Source: Akkermansia muciniphila
Lineage (GTDB): Bacteria; Verrucomicrobiota; Verrucomicrobiia; Limisphaerales; F1-80-MAGS106
Direction of reading: 5' to 3'
Assembly (NCBI GenBank): GCA_945865375.1
Contig: CAMBEJ010000008.1
Coordinates: forward strand, 1 to 64,000
DNA length: 64,000 nt
A model generated the notes under the pieces. That model was given only the letters and a program-made list of their open reading frames with translations. It was not told where the DNA came from and did not search any database. Shown here piece after piece: positions 6,924-15,919 of this stretch (position 1 is its first letter; each line of letters starts with the position of its first letter). The position numbers and the translations under genes are program-made.

Positions 6924-8912
6924 CTAGCGACCTGTGTTAGCTCCAGTCGATGACACCTCGGTCTCAATGATGCGAGACCCATCCAAATCATTGGAAGGTG
7001 TCAAGCCGGCATTGCGGCCTTTAGTGCCCCGTTTGGATGAGTTTGACGCATCAAGACCTGCGTCCGTTCCAGCTCCGGCAAAGTCACCGATGAGCACGCT
7101 GCCGTCATCCGACTTTGCAACCAAACCCCCGTCTTTGCGGAGATCGAAGTTCAGAGAATTTGATGCAGGCAGTGTCGGAGTTGACCCGTCGGGAGTCGTG
7201 AACTTGACTGGCAGGCTGTTTGCGTCATGAGTCGTAGCGATAAAGGTGCCTTTTCGAGTATCCAATGTCAGCGTGACACTGTCTCCTTCTGAAATCTCGA
7301 TTTTCAACCCGTTGAGTGAACCTAATGAGATCTCGAAATCTCCACCCACAGCCGTAAAAAGTACCGCGCCTTGTTCTGAGTAGGCAATCGAAAGTTCGTT
7401 CTTGAGCCCAACTTTCATCCGTTTCTCGCTGTTCGGCTGCATGACTGGGTCCTGCGACACCCCCTCCAAAATCAGGGGGACACCGTAATCCCACTTAAGA
7501 CCAATCGGCTCTTTGGCCCCTGAAGCCGAGGCTAGGCCCCCTCGAGATAACCGACCTCTTTCGATGACCTTGTTTTCGCCAGTCAAGCTGATCTCTTTGC
7601 GCGTCACCGTGTTCACCAGACTGACACGGCCCCCCACGGCTGCGGTTGAATAGACTGAATCTGCCAGCGAGGCAAACTGAAACGAGGCGCCCGGTGCCAC
7701 GGTCCCGACCGTTCGGCTTGGTAGCAAAACGAGCATGGATAAATCCGGTGACTTGTTGAGGATGTCAGCCGTCTTGAGCTTCGCGTTCCATTGAAGCCCG
7801 AATTCCTGTCCGCTCAGACCAAGGGGTTTCCAGCCAGGGATCTCGGGAATCGACGCCGAAATATATCGTTTGATCACGTTGAAGCTCAATGTCTGCGTCC
7901 CCAGATCGTGAAAGAGCTCCAACTCGGTCCCGTTTGCCAAACTCACCCTCGGCGCTCTCCCCGGCTCGACGCGAATCGATTGTTCACCCACTGCAATCTC
8001 AAGACCCGCTCCGAGCGTTCCCCGGACCGTGACTTCTGTGACTGGCGTCAACCGCATGATCTTCTTGCCACCCTTTCCATCCGTCATCTCCCTCAAGGGA
8101 CCTCCTGTGATCGCGGCTTGTCCAGGCCAAAAAGCAAAAGCCTTGCCATCCGCTGTGCTGCCGGTGACCGCCCCATTCCCAGCAAGGTAATAACTCAAAT
8201 CGGTAAAGATCCCCGTCTTGGTGGTTGAGTTCGGCCCCACGACCGCTTTGGCTCCATCAGGAAGGTGGATCTGCACCATCACCATCAGATCGGAGGTCGA
8301 AGACTGACCCGTAGCCACCTCAACGGAGGATCGGGGCTCTGAGTAACCAAAAGTAGCAGACTCCCCAATAGGAAGCTCCGCTTTCCACGTACTCAGATTC
8401 TCTCCCGTGATTTCCGCAGATCGCTCCACAGCACTGACCACCCAACGCGTTCCCCGTTGAATGGGTCGGAGTTCGAGGCCTTCCACTATCAATCGTCCCT
8501 TGTTTTTGGCGGCATCTTCGAAAGAAACGACAGAAGCGTTGTTTATCCGAATCTTGAAGACTTCGTCCCCAGCGCCCACAAAATGGAGTGTGGTGACTTG
8601 CCCCTGCGCCACGTTGGCGACTGTAAAACTCCTCGGCTGCAGCCCAAGCACCGCGGTCTGACCTGTGGCGAACTCCCAAACCGAAGCCTGCCCTCTCAGA
8701 TTTTGTGCCGAAATTGAACTGCCGGTATCTCGGATGATTCGAACAACCGCATTGGTGCTCAGTTGAATCACCGACTTATTGGGCAACCCAATCTGAACGG
8801 AACGTCGGCCAGAAAACTGGCTCAGATCCAAATACTTCTGGTCAGGCGCCCACCCCAAACCAAGAGTCTGACCCCTCGTTGCGACGGGAATCATCGGCGC
8901 TGCACCTTCCAC
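6924..8912 (-). pseudogene. C-terminal ORF fragment of the giant repeat protein
   Basis: 662 aa open frame; WVVSAVERSAEITGENLSTWKAELPIGESATFGYSEP. Confidence 0.5.
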
Positions 8913-10528
8913 ACTGAATAAGAGTGTCCCTTCGTGACAGCGGTTCTGAGGTTCCTCCGAATCAAATCCTGCGAGAACTCAAGCTCGGTGCCATTGGGCG
9001 TCGTTACCTTTTGGGTGCCGGTCGATCCAACGATGATCTTCCGCTCACCCATCCTCAACTCGATATCGCTTCCGAGTTGTCCGATGATTCGAACCTCTAC
9101 CGTGGGGGTTGGTCGTCTGACCGCTTCCTTCCCCTGGTCCTCCACGCTTTTCCGAAGAGGCCCTCCCACGATGGGCAACTGCCCCCCGTTCAACTCAAAA
9201 TTCCGACCATCTGCGGTGAGCCCTCCCACCTCCCCGCTTCCCATCAAAGTGTAAGTGCCATCTTTAAAAACGTCAGTCCACGTTTTCGAGTTTGGACCCA
9301 TCGCAGCCGTCGCGCCGTCCGGCATTTGCAAGCGAACCAAATCTTTGGAATCAGGCGTCGATCCCTGGGCAGTCGCCAACTCAACGACCGAACGAGGTTC
9401 CGAGTAGAGAATGGCAACGGCTTCTCCGATGGGCACACCCGCCTTCCAGCTCCCAAATGGTTCAGCGCTGACCTCCGCCGAACGTTCCATGCTTCTGATC
9501 ACCCACCGCGCTCCCTTCTGGCTGGGCTGTAATTCGACGCCCTCAATCGCGATCTTCCCCTTGGCCTTCATGGCCTCTTCAAATCCAATGACAAGTTTGT
9601 CGTTGACCCTGATTTTGAAAACATCCCCACCCGCCCTCACAAAGCGCACGCGCGTCAGTGATGTGTCTGGAGGAATGTCCAACAAGAAAAGCCGCTTCTG
9701 CAAGCCCAAATTCAGGACCTGATTGCTCGCAAGATCCCAGAAAGAAGCCTCACCCCTTAAAGTCTGAACCGAGAACGCATCCCTCGACCCGCGCGCCACC
9801 CGGATCGAGGTGCCTGGGGATAAACTCGAAAGTGACTTGTTGGGCAATAGAAGCAGCAGTGGATCGCCTCCCCCAACATGCACAATCTCGGCGACTCGTT
9901 TCGAGGAATCCATTGCGATTTGAACCGCTTGATCTGACAGCAGGATGAACTTCAGATCTGCCACGGCATCCCAATCCATCTCGACGTTCCCCTTCTTCAC
10001 CATCACTCTCAGAGCTCGCTTGTTAAAATCTTGAGAAAATTCGATTTCAGTCCCGCCTGGAGTCGTAATCTGTTGCACCCCTGAGGGGCCCACAACCGCT
10101 TTCTGTCCCTCTAAAACCACCTGGAGATTCCCGCCAATTGATCCACGAAGCGATGCTGTGATCGCAGGCGTGGCCCGGATGGATCTTTCCTTGGAGTCCG
10201 GCTCCTGGATCTTCTTCAGGGGCCCTCCGGTGAAAGGGATGGTTGAACCATCCAAAGCGAACGCTTTTCCATCCGCCGAAGTGCCTTTGACAGGTCCGAT
10301 TTCGCAGAAGAATAAGGCCCCACTGCCGCCATGCCTTCCTGGGCGAGCCTCATTACGACCACAGCTCTCGATCGTTTGTTGGAACCTTCCCCGGTAAAAA
10401 CCTTCACCCATGAACTCGACGGCGAGTAGGCGAAGGTCGCCGCCTCGCCCAAGGGCACCTCCGCCTTCCAGCTCCCTAGCGATTCTCCCGTGACTTCGGC
10501 GGGACGCCCCCAGCTCCGGACTGTCCAC
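8891..10528 (-). pseudogene. Internal ORF fragment of the giant repeat protein
   Basis: 545 aa open frame; WVIRSMERSAEVSAEPFGSWKAGVPIGEAVAILYSEP. Confidence 0.5.
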
Positions 10529-11006
10529 CGCGAGCCACCCTCAGAAGGATGAAACTCCAACCCATCCAGCTTCAGCACACCCTGAGTTTTCGCAACCTCT
10601 TCGAAACCATAAACCGCTCCTCCGTTGATTCGAATTCTAAACCCTTTCCCCTGATCACCCATGAAATGGACTTTGGTGACCAGACCGAAAATAGGACTTT
10701 CAACGGAGCGCACCACCTTTTGTGCCGTCAAACCTGTCACTTGGTCGCTGGAAACATCCCATAAAGTGACCTGCCCGCCAAGGGCCGCCACGGAGTAGGC
10801 CGTCGTATCCTCCCTCGAAAACCTCAGGATCCCGGAAGTTCCCAAACTGGCCGTCGAACGATCTGGCAGGGAAACAACAACGAGCCTCTCCCCGCCACTC
10901 CGTGAGATATCGAGTAGCTGACGGCTCTCGTCCCAGTCCAAAGCGACCGACTGACCTGTCAGGAGAACGCAACCAATTTGTTTAAAGCCATCCAGCCTGA
11001 GTTGCA

Positions 11007-13316
11007 CTAACCCCTTGGAGACGGAGGCCCGCACACCCCATCCTTGCCGTTCTGTGTGAGCTCGAAACTCGTTCCATTGGGGAGGGTGAAATGTTTTCCT
11101 GAACTCTTGGTCAACGGCACCTTCTGACCGTTGGCATCAGCCACGACATCCCCGCGGGCGGTGCCGTAAAAAACGACTTGCGCGGCGTAGGGGCTCACAT
11201 CGCTGACATCTTGCATGACAGAAGACGGAGTTCCTAACATCCCCCCGTTCATCAAAGCCGTGCCTCCTCCCAACACAAAATTCCTTCCAGCCGCCGTGAT
11301 TCCCCTCACAGCTCCTGACCCGAAAAAAGTATAACTGCCGTCCTTCATCACATCGGTCTTGGTGTAGGAATAAGGACCCATCGACGCAGTCGCTCCATCA
11401 GAAAACTCGAACTTGACAAGGGCGTTGGTCGACCCTGACGTAGCCTGAGCTGTGGTGACTTCAGCCAACGCCAGCGGCTCTGAATACCAGACGGTGGCTG
11501 ACTCGTTCAGGCTTATTTCCGCTCTCCATTCTCCGAGGGCATGAGCGCTGACCTCGGCCGGCTTCTCGACACTCCGGATCACCCAGCTTGTCCCCTTATT
11601 CTTGGGGATCAATTCCACTCCATCCCGTGAAATGGTTCCTCTTTTTGCGTCTTGGGCGTTTTCAAAACCAAACACAGATACCCCGTTGATTCTGATCTTG
11701 AACCCTCCTTGAGGACCTCCCAGTAGTTGCACCCTCGTCACCAAGCCAACCACTCGTTTCCCGCCGTTCGGAACCACAGTCACATGCTTCATAGCGCCAA
11801 GATCCAAGGGTAGCAACGAGCTGGATTCCCAAACCGCAACCTTCCCTTGCGTGGCACGGACTGAATAGGTGTTCGGACTCTCCTTCTTGAGACGGACCGC
11901 GCTCCCAGGGTGGAGAACGACCCCGGGTTGGTTCGACATTGCCAGAGGAATAGGCTCTGCTCCTTTGACGTGAAGTAATCCCAACCGGTCCTCTGACCCA
12001 ACCCAGTCAATGGCGAATGATTGCCCCGAAAGCAGCAGCGGGGTCACCGATTCCAAAGCCGCTATTTCAAGGCCGATGAACCCCTTGACAACCACCACAT
12101 TCAACAGACGGCTTTCCGGATCGAGATCGAATTCTACTTCCGTCCCATTAGGCGTACGAAGACTGTTTTTCCCACCCCCCGTCAGGATGAACCGTTGAGG
12201 AGCGGCCTCCACTTCCACGGAGCCTCCAGCCTCTCTCTTCACCCGGATCGCAGTGAAGGATGTGCCCCGTGCAAGCCGGCCCCGTCCGCTCTGGTCAGAG
12301 AGGCTCTTCATTGGGCCACCCCGAAGAGGGATCGAAAAGGAGCCCAAATCGAAAGGTGTCCTGTCGGCGTCCACCCCTGTTAAAGAACCCCTGCCCGAGA
12401 GGGCGTACGTTCCAACAAGATGAATTCTCGTGAGCTGGGTGTTGAAACCACGACCTGCTGCAACCTCGAAAGTGCGCGCGCTTGTGGGGAGGGCCATGAT
12501 CCGCCGCGAAGGTCCGTCCAAAACCGCAACCCGCCCCTTCGTGGTCTGGGCCGAATAGGTGCCCGAGGATGTCCGAACCAATCGCAGCGCGCTGACAGGC
12601 CCCACGCTAGCCATGGACCCATCGGGAAGCATCGCATAAACTGGGTCGTCCCCAGAGCCGTGCATAATGTCCACACTCTTTTGACCCGCATCCCACGTCA
12701 GAATGACTGATTGGCCCGAATACAGCACGGCAGAGCCGGCTCCAATTTCAGCAGGCTCAAGGGTCACCAGGCCTTTTTTGACAAAGACTTCCAAAGCCTT
12801 TTTCACCGTGTTCTGCTCAAACCGTAGCTCCGTGCCGTTGGGCGTGGAAACCGATTGGCTGGAGGACGCCGCCACGGTGGTTCGTTGGCCTGCAATCTCC
12901 AACTCCACATTCCCGCCAACTTGACCTCTGAAAATCACGGAAACGGCCGGTGAGGTTCTGGCCAAGTCTCCGCCTACCCTGCCACCACGAGTCTGTTTGG
13001 AGGGCCCGCCCGATACGTAAAAATGGGTGGAACCTAACACAAACCGGTCTTTCTCGGCCGTGATTCCAGAAATCGAGCCAGTCCCCGAGATCGTGTAGGT
13101 CGTGTCCAAATACGATTCCACTCGTGCATGAGACCCAGGACCGATATCAGCGTAGGCTCCGTCCGGCAATGTCATCGTGGTCCGGGATACCCCACCCGCT
13201 TTGGATCCCGTAGCAGTTCCCACACGAACAAGCCTCTCCTCCTTGCAGAATTCAAAGACCGACTCCTCAAAAACTGCCAAGCTCGATACCCAGCCCGGGA
13301 TGTCCTCAGCAGTCAC
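11007..13316 (-). pseudogene. Internal ORF fragment of the giant repeat protein
   Basis: 769 aa open frame; WVIRSVEKPAEVSAHALGEWRAEISLNESATVWYSEP. Confidence 0.5.
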
Positions 13317-13825
13317 AACGGTCTGCTTATCGATCGCCTAGATGACCCAAGACCTCCCTTTCTCCTTCACCGTGAGTCCGACGCCGTTTGTCGTCAACGT
13401 GCCTTGATGAGGCAAAAGGTTCTCATAACCAAAGACCAGTTTCTCACCCACCCGGACCCGGGAAATACAATTCTCAGCACCCCCAATCAAGTGAACCCGC
13501 TGCGCCTCAGAGGGACCCGATCCAGGGGCCGCCGACTGAGCCCACCCAAGCACAGGAAGCAGATTGAACCCGCAGGCGAGAAACCAACCTAGGACAGCTC
13601 CGCCATGTTTGATGTCCGCTGCTTTCATCGACTGTTGATTGGATCACAGACTGTTCCGTCTTGGCGTGGCCTCTGACTGCGCACCGCGCTTGTCAATAGC
13701 TCACAAAAGCACTGATTTCAAGGAGCCATTTCCCAGATGGAACCAGCGGACCGGCACGGGAAATTATTTGTATTTGACAGAAAAACTATGACCCATCATG
13801 TTATCAGAATCCGTTGATATAACGG

Positions 13826-13947
13826 TCTCATTTAGAGTGGTGGAGGGACTGGCCCTGCGAAACCACGGCAACCGGTGTGGCCAGCAAGCCCATGAGCGTG
13901 TGCCAATTCCAGCCCCGAGCAGAGTGTGCCTCGGAACCGATGAGAAG
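13826..13947 (+). promoter_or_regulatory. SAM-I (S-box) riboswitch aptamer
   Basis: agagtggtggagggactggccctgcgaaaccacggcaacc...gtgccaattccagc...gatgagaag matches S-box consensus; P1 tctcat/atgaga. Confidence 0.88.
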
Positions 13948-13961
13948 AGCGCTGCCGTTCC

Positions 13962-13998
13962 ACCCCTTCTCATACCCGGAGCAGGGGTTTTTTATTTT
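13962..13998 (+). terminator. Riboswitch-controlled intrinsic terminator
   Basis: acccct-tctcatacccggagc-aggggt followed by ttttttatttt; cttctcat (13966-13973) can instead pair with atgagaag (13940-13947). Confidence 0.8.
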
Positions 13999-14015: not shown

Positions 14016-15275
14016 ATGGATAAGAACACAGGGTTCATGAAGGCCCTCAAATGCCGTGAGTGTGGGAGGGAATACCCTCTGGAAGCCACTCACGTTTGCG
14101 AGTTCGACTTCGGCCCGCTCGAGGTCGTTTATGACTACGATCGAATCAAACACTCCCTGACACGGGCCGTCATCAAGAGCCGACCACAGTCCATGTGGCG
14201 CTACCGCGAACTGCTGCCGGTTGCCGGTGAACCCACTGTGGGGTGCCAGGTCGGATACACCCCTCTCGTGAAGGCGGACCGCTTGGCAAAACGCCTTGGG
14301 ATCCGCGAGCTTTGGGTAAAAAACGATACCGTCAACTACCCCACTTTATCTTTCAAAGACCGTGTTGTGAGTGTCGCGTTGAGCCGCGCCCGGGAGCTGG
14401 GATTTAGCACCGTGGCATGCGCGTCAACGGGGAATCTGGCCAATTCTGTGGCTGCCAACGCGGCGGCCGCAGGCCTCAAGGCCTATGTCTTCATCCCGTC
14501 TGACCTGGAACAGGGGAAGGTGGTCAATTCACTGGTTTATGGCGCGCACGTTATTGGGATCCGGGGGCACTACGATGAGGTCAACCGTTTGTGCGCGGAG
14601 ATAGCCGGTAAATACGGCTGGGCTTTCGTCAACGTGAACATGCGCCCTTATTATGCGGAGGGGTCCAAAAGCATGGGGTTTGAAATTCTCGAACAGCTCG
14701 GTTGGACCGTGCCACAACACACTGTGGTTTGCATGGCTTCAGGCTCCCTCCTAACGAAAATTCACAAGAGCTACCAAGAATTCATGAAACTCGGGATCGT
14801 CGCCGAGTCGCGCTACAAAGTACACGGAGCCCAGGCTACCGGCTGTTCCCCGATCTCCACAGCTCAAAAAGCCGGGTTAGACTTTTTCAAACCGGTAAAG
14901 CCAAACACGATTGCCAAATCGCTTGCGATCGGAACCCCAGCGGATGGGTTCTATGCGCTCAAAGTCATGAAGGAAACAGGAGGCGCCGCTGAGGATGTCA
15001 CAGACGATGAAGTGCGTGAGGGAATAAAATTGTTGGCGGAGACCGAGGGGATTTTCGCGGAGACAGCGGGAGGTGTCACGGTAGGTGTCGCCAAGAAATT
15101 GATTGCCTCTGGCCACATTCCCCAGGATGCTTCCGCCGTTCTCTGCATCACCGGAAACGGCCTGAAAACACTCGACGCCATCGCCGGCCATGTCGGGCAG
15201 ACACGGGAAATCAAACCCAGTCTCCGCGAATTCGAGGCGCTCTTGGACAAAGAGAACAAGCTGATCAACGCCTAG
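14016..15275 (+). CDS. thrC: Threonine synthase-like PLP enzyme
   Basis: 419 aa; N-terminal CRECGREYPL, LWVKNDTVNYPTLSFKDR PLP-lysine region, ASTGNLANSVAANAA, TGNGLKTLDA. Confidence 0.88.
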   Translation: MDKNTGFMKALKCRECGREYPLEATHVCEFDFGPLEVVYDYDRIKHSLTRAVIKSRPQSMWRYRELLPVAGEPTVGCQVGYTPLVKADRLAKRLGIRELWVKNDTVNYPTLSFKDRVVSVALSRARELGFSTVACASTGNLANSVAANAAAAGLKAYVFIPSDLEQGKVVNSLVYGAHVIGIRGHYDEVNRLCAEIAGKYGWAFVNVNMRPYYAEGSKSMGFEILEQLGWTVPQHTVVCMASGSLLTKIHKSYQEFMKLGIVAESRYKVHGAQATGCSPISTAQKAGLDFFKPVKPNTIAKSLAIGTPADGFYALKVMKETGGAAEDVTDDEVREGIKLLAETEGIFAETAGGVTVGVAKKLIASGHIPQDASAVLCITGNGLKTLDAIAGHVGQTREIKPSLREFEALLDKENKLINA

Positions 15276-15311: not shown

Positions 15312-15587
15312 ATGGCTAAGAAAGTACGCATTCCCACTCCTCTGCGAAAGCTCACCCATGACGAAGAAATCGTCGAGGTGACGTCGGACACTATCAAGGG
15401 CGCAATCATGGAACTTCAAGTGCGGTTCCCGGGCATCCAGGAACGGCTCCTGGATGAGTCGGGGGCCATCCGGAGATTTGTCAATGTCTACGTCAATGAG
15501 GAGGACATTCGTTTTCTACAGAATCAGGAAACCCTCCTCAACGAGGGCGACGAAATAAGCATCATTCCCGCGATCGCAGGCGGTTAG
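15312..15587 (+). CDS. MoaD/ThiS-family ubiquitin-like sulfur carrier
   Basis: 91 aa, beta-grasp pattern, ends VNEEDIRFLQNQETLLNEGDEISIIPAIAGG. Confidence 0.88.
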   Translation: MAKKVRIPTPLRKLTHDEEIVEVTSDTIKGAIMELQVRFPGIQERLLDESGAIRRFVNVYVNEEDIRFLQNQETLLNEGDEISIIPAIAGG

Positions 15588-15622: not shown

Positions 15623-15919
15623 TTGAAGACTGTCAAAAACGAATCCTCAAAGGGCTCGCCTCGCCCCGCGCACGTTCTGCAAAAATCCCGGCTTTGGTTG
15701 ATGTACCCACCCAGGTTGATCACCACTCCCGTTGTTTGGCAGCTTGGCCAAAAACACAAAGTGATCACCAATGTCCGACAAGCCAGTGTCACCGACGAAA
15801 TCGGGATCGTTTGCCTCGAACTCGAAGGCCGTAGAGCAGACATCAAGGCTGCTATCAGATGGATGACGAACCTTGGGATCAGCGTCGAACCGGTGGAGAT
15901 CAACATCATTGAAAGTTGA
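15623..15919 (+). CDS. NIL-domain protein (start uncertain; 15701 also possible)
   Basis: LWLMYPPRLITTPVVWQLGQKHKVITNVRQASVTDEIGIVCLELEGRRADIKAAIRWMTNLGISVEPVE. Confidence 0.75.
   Translation: MKTVKNESSKGSPRPAHVLQKSRLWLMYPPRLITTPVVWQLGQKHKVITNVRQASVTDEIGIVCLELEGRRADIKAAIRWMTNLGISVEPVEINIIES

Follow-up and report, generated by a model that had tools for sequence, protein, structure and literature searches.

The leader and operon described here lie on the forward strand of the window, by which we mean the whole 64,000-nucleotide stretch of DNA that was analyzed. The operon consists of three genes, encoding a PLP enzyme, a CysO/ThiS-like sulfur carrier, and a NIL-domain protein, with gaps of 36 nt and then 35 nt between them. 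The first gene (14016–15275, + strand) would be annotated as thrC; its product, which matches PALP at 230 bits and falls into a MetM-type clade, is a predicted homocysteine synthase. The second gene (15312–15587, +) encodes a MetO/CysO-like carrier of 91 amino acids that ends in IAGG (ThiS, 64.6 bits), and the third (15623–15919, +) a stand-alone NIL-domain protein of 98 amino acids with a TTG start (NIL, PF09383, 35.7 bits; cut-off 24). Elsewhere in the window, at 6924–13628 on the minus strand, long reading frames of 662, 545, 272, 769, and 96 amino acids lie in series, with similar motifs recurring in overlapping or adjacent frames; they may be paralogues, or else pieces of a single large repetitive gene that frameshifts have interrupted.

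The aptamer of a SAM-I riboswitch occupies 13825–13946 (+). A preliminary description of this DNA had identified a SAM-I riboswitch here and proposed an Infernal search with RF00162 as a check; in a cmscan with all 4227 Rfam families, RF00162 was the single match in the window, at 60.0 bits (E 2.1e-11; gathering threshold 44.4) and with model positions 1–108 of 108 aligned, and the folding energies and comparative conservation reported below agree with the identification. This leader carries the one SAM-I found in the host genome. A second SAM-I, apart from the metM operon, was seen in another genome of the host's order (G162, contig C57, 5489–5602).

Two further elements precede the aptamer. 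A putative promoter (13774–13802, +), proposed from conservation only, consists of TTGACA (13774–13779), 17 nt, and CATGTT (13797–13802). Of 73 non-redundant leaders, 72 have TTGAC at the same place, about 45–50 nt ahead of the aptamer, as a probable -35 element; the -10 element CATGTT is weak, and a consensus promoter scan reported nothing at the leader. Directly 5' of P1 is a short stem-loop (CCGTTGATATAACGG; 13811–13825, +), probably near the 5' end of the transcript, whose stem is kept in related loci: a stem of 5 bp or more is present at this place in 55 of the 73 leaders, with 41 different stem sequences, and 49 of these 55 stems end at P1 base one or two. The stem-loop may mark the transcript 5' end or stack on P1.

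Downstream, the 3' strand of P1 is common to the aptamer and an antiterminator, and a terminator is present. In the antiterminator (13940–13973, +), the P1 3' strand, atgagaag at 13940–13947, pairs with its exact 8-bp complement, cttctcat at 13966–13973. The intrinsic terminator (13962–13998, +) pairs acccct (13962–13967) with aggggt (13983–13988), followed by a T-rich tail, and has an energy of -13.0 kcal/mol in isolation. The preliminary description had both pairings exactly right, and its reading of them as a SAM-OFF termination architecture is supported by the Rfam match, the folding energies, and the comparative conservation. When the whole leader (13820–13998) was folded, the minimum free energy, which like the other energies refers to the RNA alone without SAM, was -57.6 kcal/mol and identical to that of the P1-plus-terminator (OFF) form, compared with -54.6 kcal/mol for the forced antiterminator (ON) form. 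A transcript that stops at 13978, and so lacks the 3' half of the terminator, adopts the antiterminator fold. Together, the OFF form at the energy minimum and the antiterminator in the shortened transcript are the two states that a transcriptional OFF switch requires.

The same arrangement recurs in relatives. A scan of contigs with the downstream protein yielded 80 loci, mostly named Verrucomicrobia, Pedosphaera, or Limisphaerales, with a few metagenome-assembled genomes otherwise named; with the loci from whole-genome searches, the related loci number 115. In 112 of them, no more than 500 nt separate the aptamer from the start codon, and a hairpin with a T-run better than -8 kcal/mol is conserved in 101 of these 112. 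Across 76 non-redundant leaders, the pairing of P1 (82.1%), antiterminator (91.3%), and terminator (87.7%) in each case exceeds all slid registers and all 500 shuffles (maxima 81.1%, 89.7%, and 84.7%, respectively), a result that is supportive only, because the shuffles do not correct for the relatedness of the leaders. The antiterminator pairs are kept and partly covary, with 10 two-sided changes against a shuffle maximum of 4; concerted changes are found, for example, in locus L017, where the P1 3' strand GAGACGAG occurs with CCCCGTCTC, and in locus L111, where GAGTGGCG occurs with CCTGCTCAT. The leader thus has two mutually exclusive folds, conserved as a three-way pairing across relatives. 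Two loci (L023 and L030) have a metM-type operon with no detectable SAM-I, indicating that the switch can be lost or can diverge past recognition. A Verrucomicrobia contig among the loci also has a match to RF02820 (Vibrio RNA AS9; locus L062, 2414–2517, 63 bits).

The gene directly under this leader scores 279 bits with the thrC model TIGR00260 (curated cut-off 167.1), a model that fails to separate MetM from ThrC. In a 40-protein tree, a branch with 100/100 support places the window enzyme, its Verrucomicrobiota relatives, and a homologue from the actinobacterium Nonomuraea gerenzanensis on one side. A second ThrC of the host, encoded directly after hom (323 bits), clusters with the solved enzymes of B. 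subtilis and T. thermophilus, and the window enzyme does not; some ThrC branches in this tree are long, and their placement is unsure. Thirty-three positions are conserved inside both the MetM-type and the ThrC groups yet differ between them (our literature search found no paper on ThrC active-site residues with which to compare them). Because a separate thrC lies by hom, and given the MetM clade and the group-specific positions, the window gene very probably does not encode the cell's threonine synthase; the most likely product of its enzyme is homocysteine, from which methionine is made.

MetM of Streptomyces is described in PMC12172450, citing Hasebe et al. 2024 (doi 10.1128/aem.01247-24), as a homocysteine synthase that has an upstream SAM riboswitch and a sulfur-carrier gene, metO, and works via O-phosphohomoserine. 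Our literature search found no other detailed account of MetM, and no paper linking SAM riboswitches with Verrucomicrobia. In Nonomuraea gerenzanensis, a locus with the same gene order as that in the window has a SAM-I (68.7 bits), the homologue noted above (54.9% identical), and, a few nucleotides downstream of it, a carrier (51.6%).

The carrier adjoins the enzyme gene in 67 of the 68 loci with enough sequence, and its C-terminal AGG is kept in relatives. Its best match in the PDB is 3dwg_C, deposited as '9.5 kDa culture filtrate antigen cfp10A', which we take to be CysO of Mycobacterium tuberculosis. One locus (L012, 5240–5880) has two tandem MetO-like carriers, ending in IIPAFAGG and IIPAIAGG. 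The NIL gene is present in 50 of the 68 loci; its absence from the other 18, most of which have a more divergent carrier, indicates that it is not essential to the system. Many of the loci lacking it have only one carrier, which is of the FAGG type wherever the sequence was read. The predicted structure of the NIL protein has a mean pLDDT of 85, and its eleven best Foldseek hits are all MetN C2/NIL structures, the matches including 3tui, 3dhw, 3dhx, 2qsw, 2qrr, and 3ced. Its probable role would be either sensing methionine, a hypothesis drawn by analogy to these domains, or assisting the complex. We found no paper linking NIL domains with riboswitches.

The remainder of the host genome is consistent with a role of this operon in methionine synthesis. 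Family searches found no recognizable MetX, no recognizable MetA, and no full-length protein of the Cys_Met_Meta_PP (MetB/MetY) family, in an assembly that is 93.6% complete and in 266 contigs, so that any single absence may be a gap. MetH is present (1733 bits); outside the operon, the genome also encodes an E1-rhodanese fusion, a type of enzyme that produces protein thiocarboxylates. Among 57 genomes of the host's order, the same 41 carry the enzyme (counted at an identity of at least 78%) and SAM-I, which occurs in none of the 16 others. Full-length Cys_Met_Meta_PP proteins are found in five of the 41 enzyme-bearing genomes as against 13 of the 16 enzyme-less ones (Fisher p 1.4e-6; p 4e-5 with one genome per family). 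The enzyme is rarer in a sample of the phylum than in the order (9 of 146 genomes, six of the nine with SAM-I); the three without a SAM-I hit are a point against the reading that we prefer below. It had been suggested in the preliminary description that control by SAM is informative about the function of the thrC-annotated gene. The MetM-type clade, the other thrC by hom, and the lack of recognizable MetX, MetA, and full-length MetB/MetY bear this out.

Our preferred reading, to which we assign a probability of about 85%, is that the SAM-I riboswitch controls an operon for homocysteine synthesis by transcription termination. At high SAM, the aptamer and P1 would be stabilized and the P1 3' strand occupied, so that the terminator could form and transcription would stop ahead of the operon. 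At low SAM, the P1 3' strand would instead pair with 13966–13973, blocking the terminator and allowing the operon genes to be read. The MetM-type enzyme would then exchange the phosphate of O-phosphohomoserine for sulfur, which the MetO-like product of the second gene is predicted to carry as a thiocarboxylate on its C-terminal Gly-Gly. The carrier is likely to be activated by the E1-rhodanese protein encoded outside the operon, and MetH would convert the resulting homocysteine to methionine.

It is improbable that the gene is instead a true second threonine synthase, or a bifunctional enzyme, with the riboswitch tuning the point at which the threonine and methionine branches diverge. The score of 279 against 167 bits, above the cut-off of the thrC model, would fit such an enzyme, as would the homologue from Microcystis, which is active in vitro as a threonine synthase and also as a threonine deaminase, homocysteine production in cells not having been shown (PMC12172450); these activities indicate that side activities are possible. 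However, the host has its separate thrC beside hom, the window enzyme belongs to a clade of its own with 33 conserved differences, the sulfur carrier is co-located in all but one of the 68 loci, and across genomes this type of enzyme replaces those of the MetB/MetY family. Moreover, turning off threonine synthesis at high SAM makes little sense. We rejected a plain threonine synthase because of the tree, the second thrC of the host, and the association seen across genomes.

We consider it still less probable that the product of the operon is a different sulfur amino acid (cysteine made from O-phosphoserine, as by CysM-CysO, would be one example), with control by SAM reflecting general sulfur metabolism. 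SAM-I controls cysteine genes too in some bacteria, and the best solved relative of the carrier is presumably CysO, the partner of CysM in M. tuberculosis. Yet, among solved proteins, threonine synthases are closest to the enzyme and CysM-type enzymes rank far lower; across genomes the gene is exchanged for MetB/MetY-family enzymes; and the related MetM is reported, in the account given by PMC12172450, to be a homocysteine synthase. Cysteine synthesis was rejected on the closest relatives of the enzyme and the exchange with methionine enzymes. The least credible alternative is that the riboswitch of the host genome has decayed and lost SAM binding, for although its leader scores lowest among the 41 SAM-I leaders of the order sample (60 bits, the others about 67–88), RF00162 aligns end to end with the conserved core retained, the score is far over the cut-off, and an intact expression platform follows the aptamer.

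If the operon does make homocysteine under the SAM switch, the cell would be able to shut methionine synthesis when SAM is plentiful. The riboswitch here identifies the pathway of a misannotated gene. Many SAM-controlled genes of Verrucomicrobiota that bear the misleading name 'thrC' very probably encode homocysteine synthases; genomes lacking MetA/MetX and MetB/MetY, and so seeming to be methionine auxotrophs, are probably prototrophs. The NIL protein is a candidate further part of this recently described route. We tentatively raise the possibility of a second feedback loop, in which the NIL protein binds methionine and regulates or docks on MetM-MetO, such that SAM would act on transcription and methionine on the enzyme. 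If true, NIL proteins would be a common element connecting the MetM-MetO pathway, MetN, and the DUF39-NIL/ferredoxin route to homocysteine.

Compared with known systems, the leader is a SAM-I (S-box) riboswitch of the transcription-termination type, both in its full-length RF00162 match and in its layout of P1, antiterminator, and terminator; it shows no essential difference from that class, adding only the short stem-loop that abuts P1 outside the RF00162 match. With the CysM-CysO thiocarboxylate carrier system of M. tuberculosis, the operon shares a PLP enzyme of fold type II and a Gly-Gly carrier, the latter having CysO as its best PDB match, but the window enzyme is threonine-synthase-like rather than CysM-like and its predicted product is homocysteine. 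The third gene product resembles the NIL/C2 regulatory domain of MetN in its Pfam match and best structural matches, whereas it stands alone in a biosynthetic operon, without an ATPase. In the DUF39-NIL/ferredoxin pathway of Desulfovibrio and methanogens, which bypasses homoserine (PMC5764234), a NIL-domain protein likewise takes part in homocysteine synthesis; the NIL protein of the window, in contrast, has no ferredoxin domain, and its gene lies with those for the sulfur carrier and the PLP enzyme.

The closest likeness is to metM-metO of Streptomyces which, as described in PMC12172450, has the same SAM riboswitch, threonine-synthase-like PLP enzyme, and neighboring sulfur carrier; this arrangement was already known. 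The window operon differs in its Verrucomicrobiota host and in its third, NIL-domain gene, a comparison made by description and through the Nonomuraea locus, whose identical layout forms a bridge to the reported Streptomyces MetM. For this reason the operon is best classed as a metM-metO operon of Verrucomicrobiota with a NIL gene in addition; what is new is its spread across one order of that phylum, the NIL gene, and the stem-loop that abuts P1 on the 5' side.
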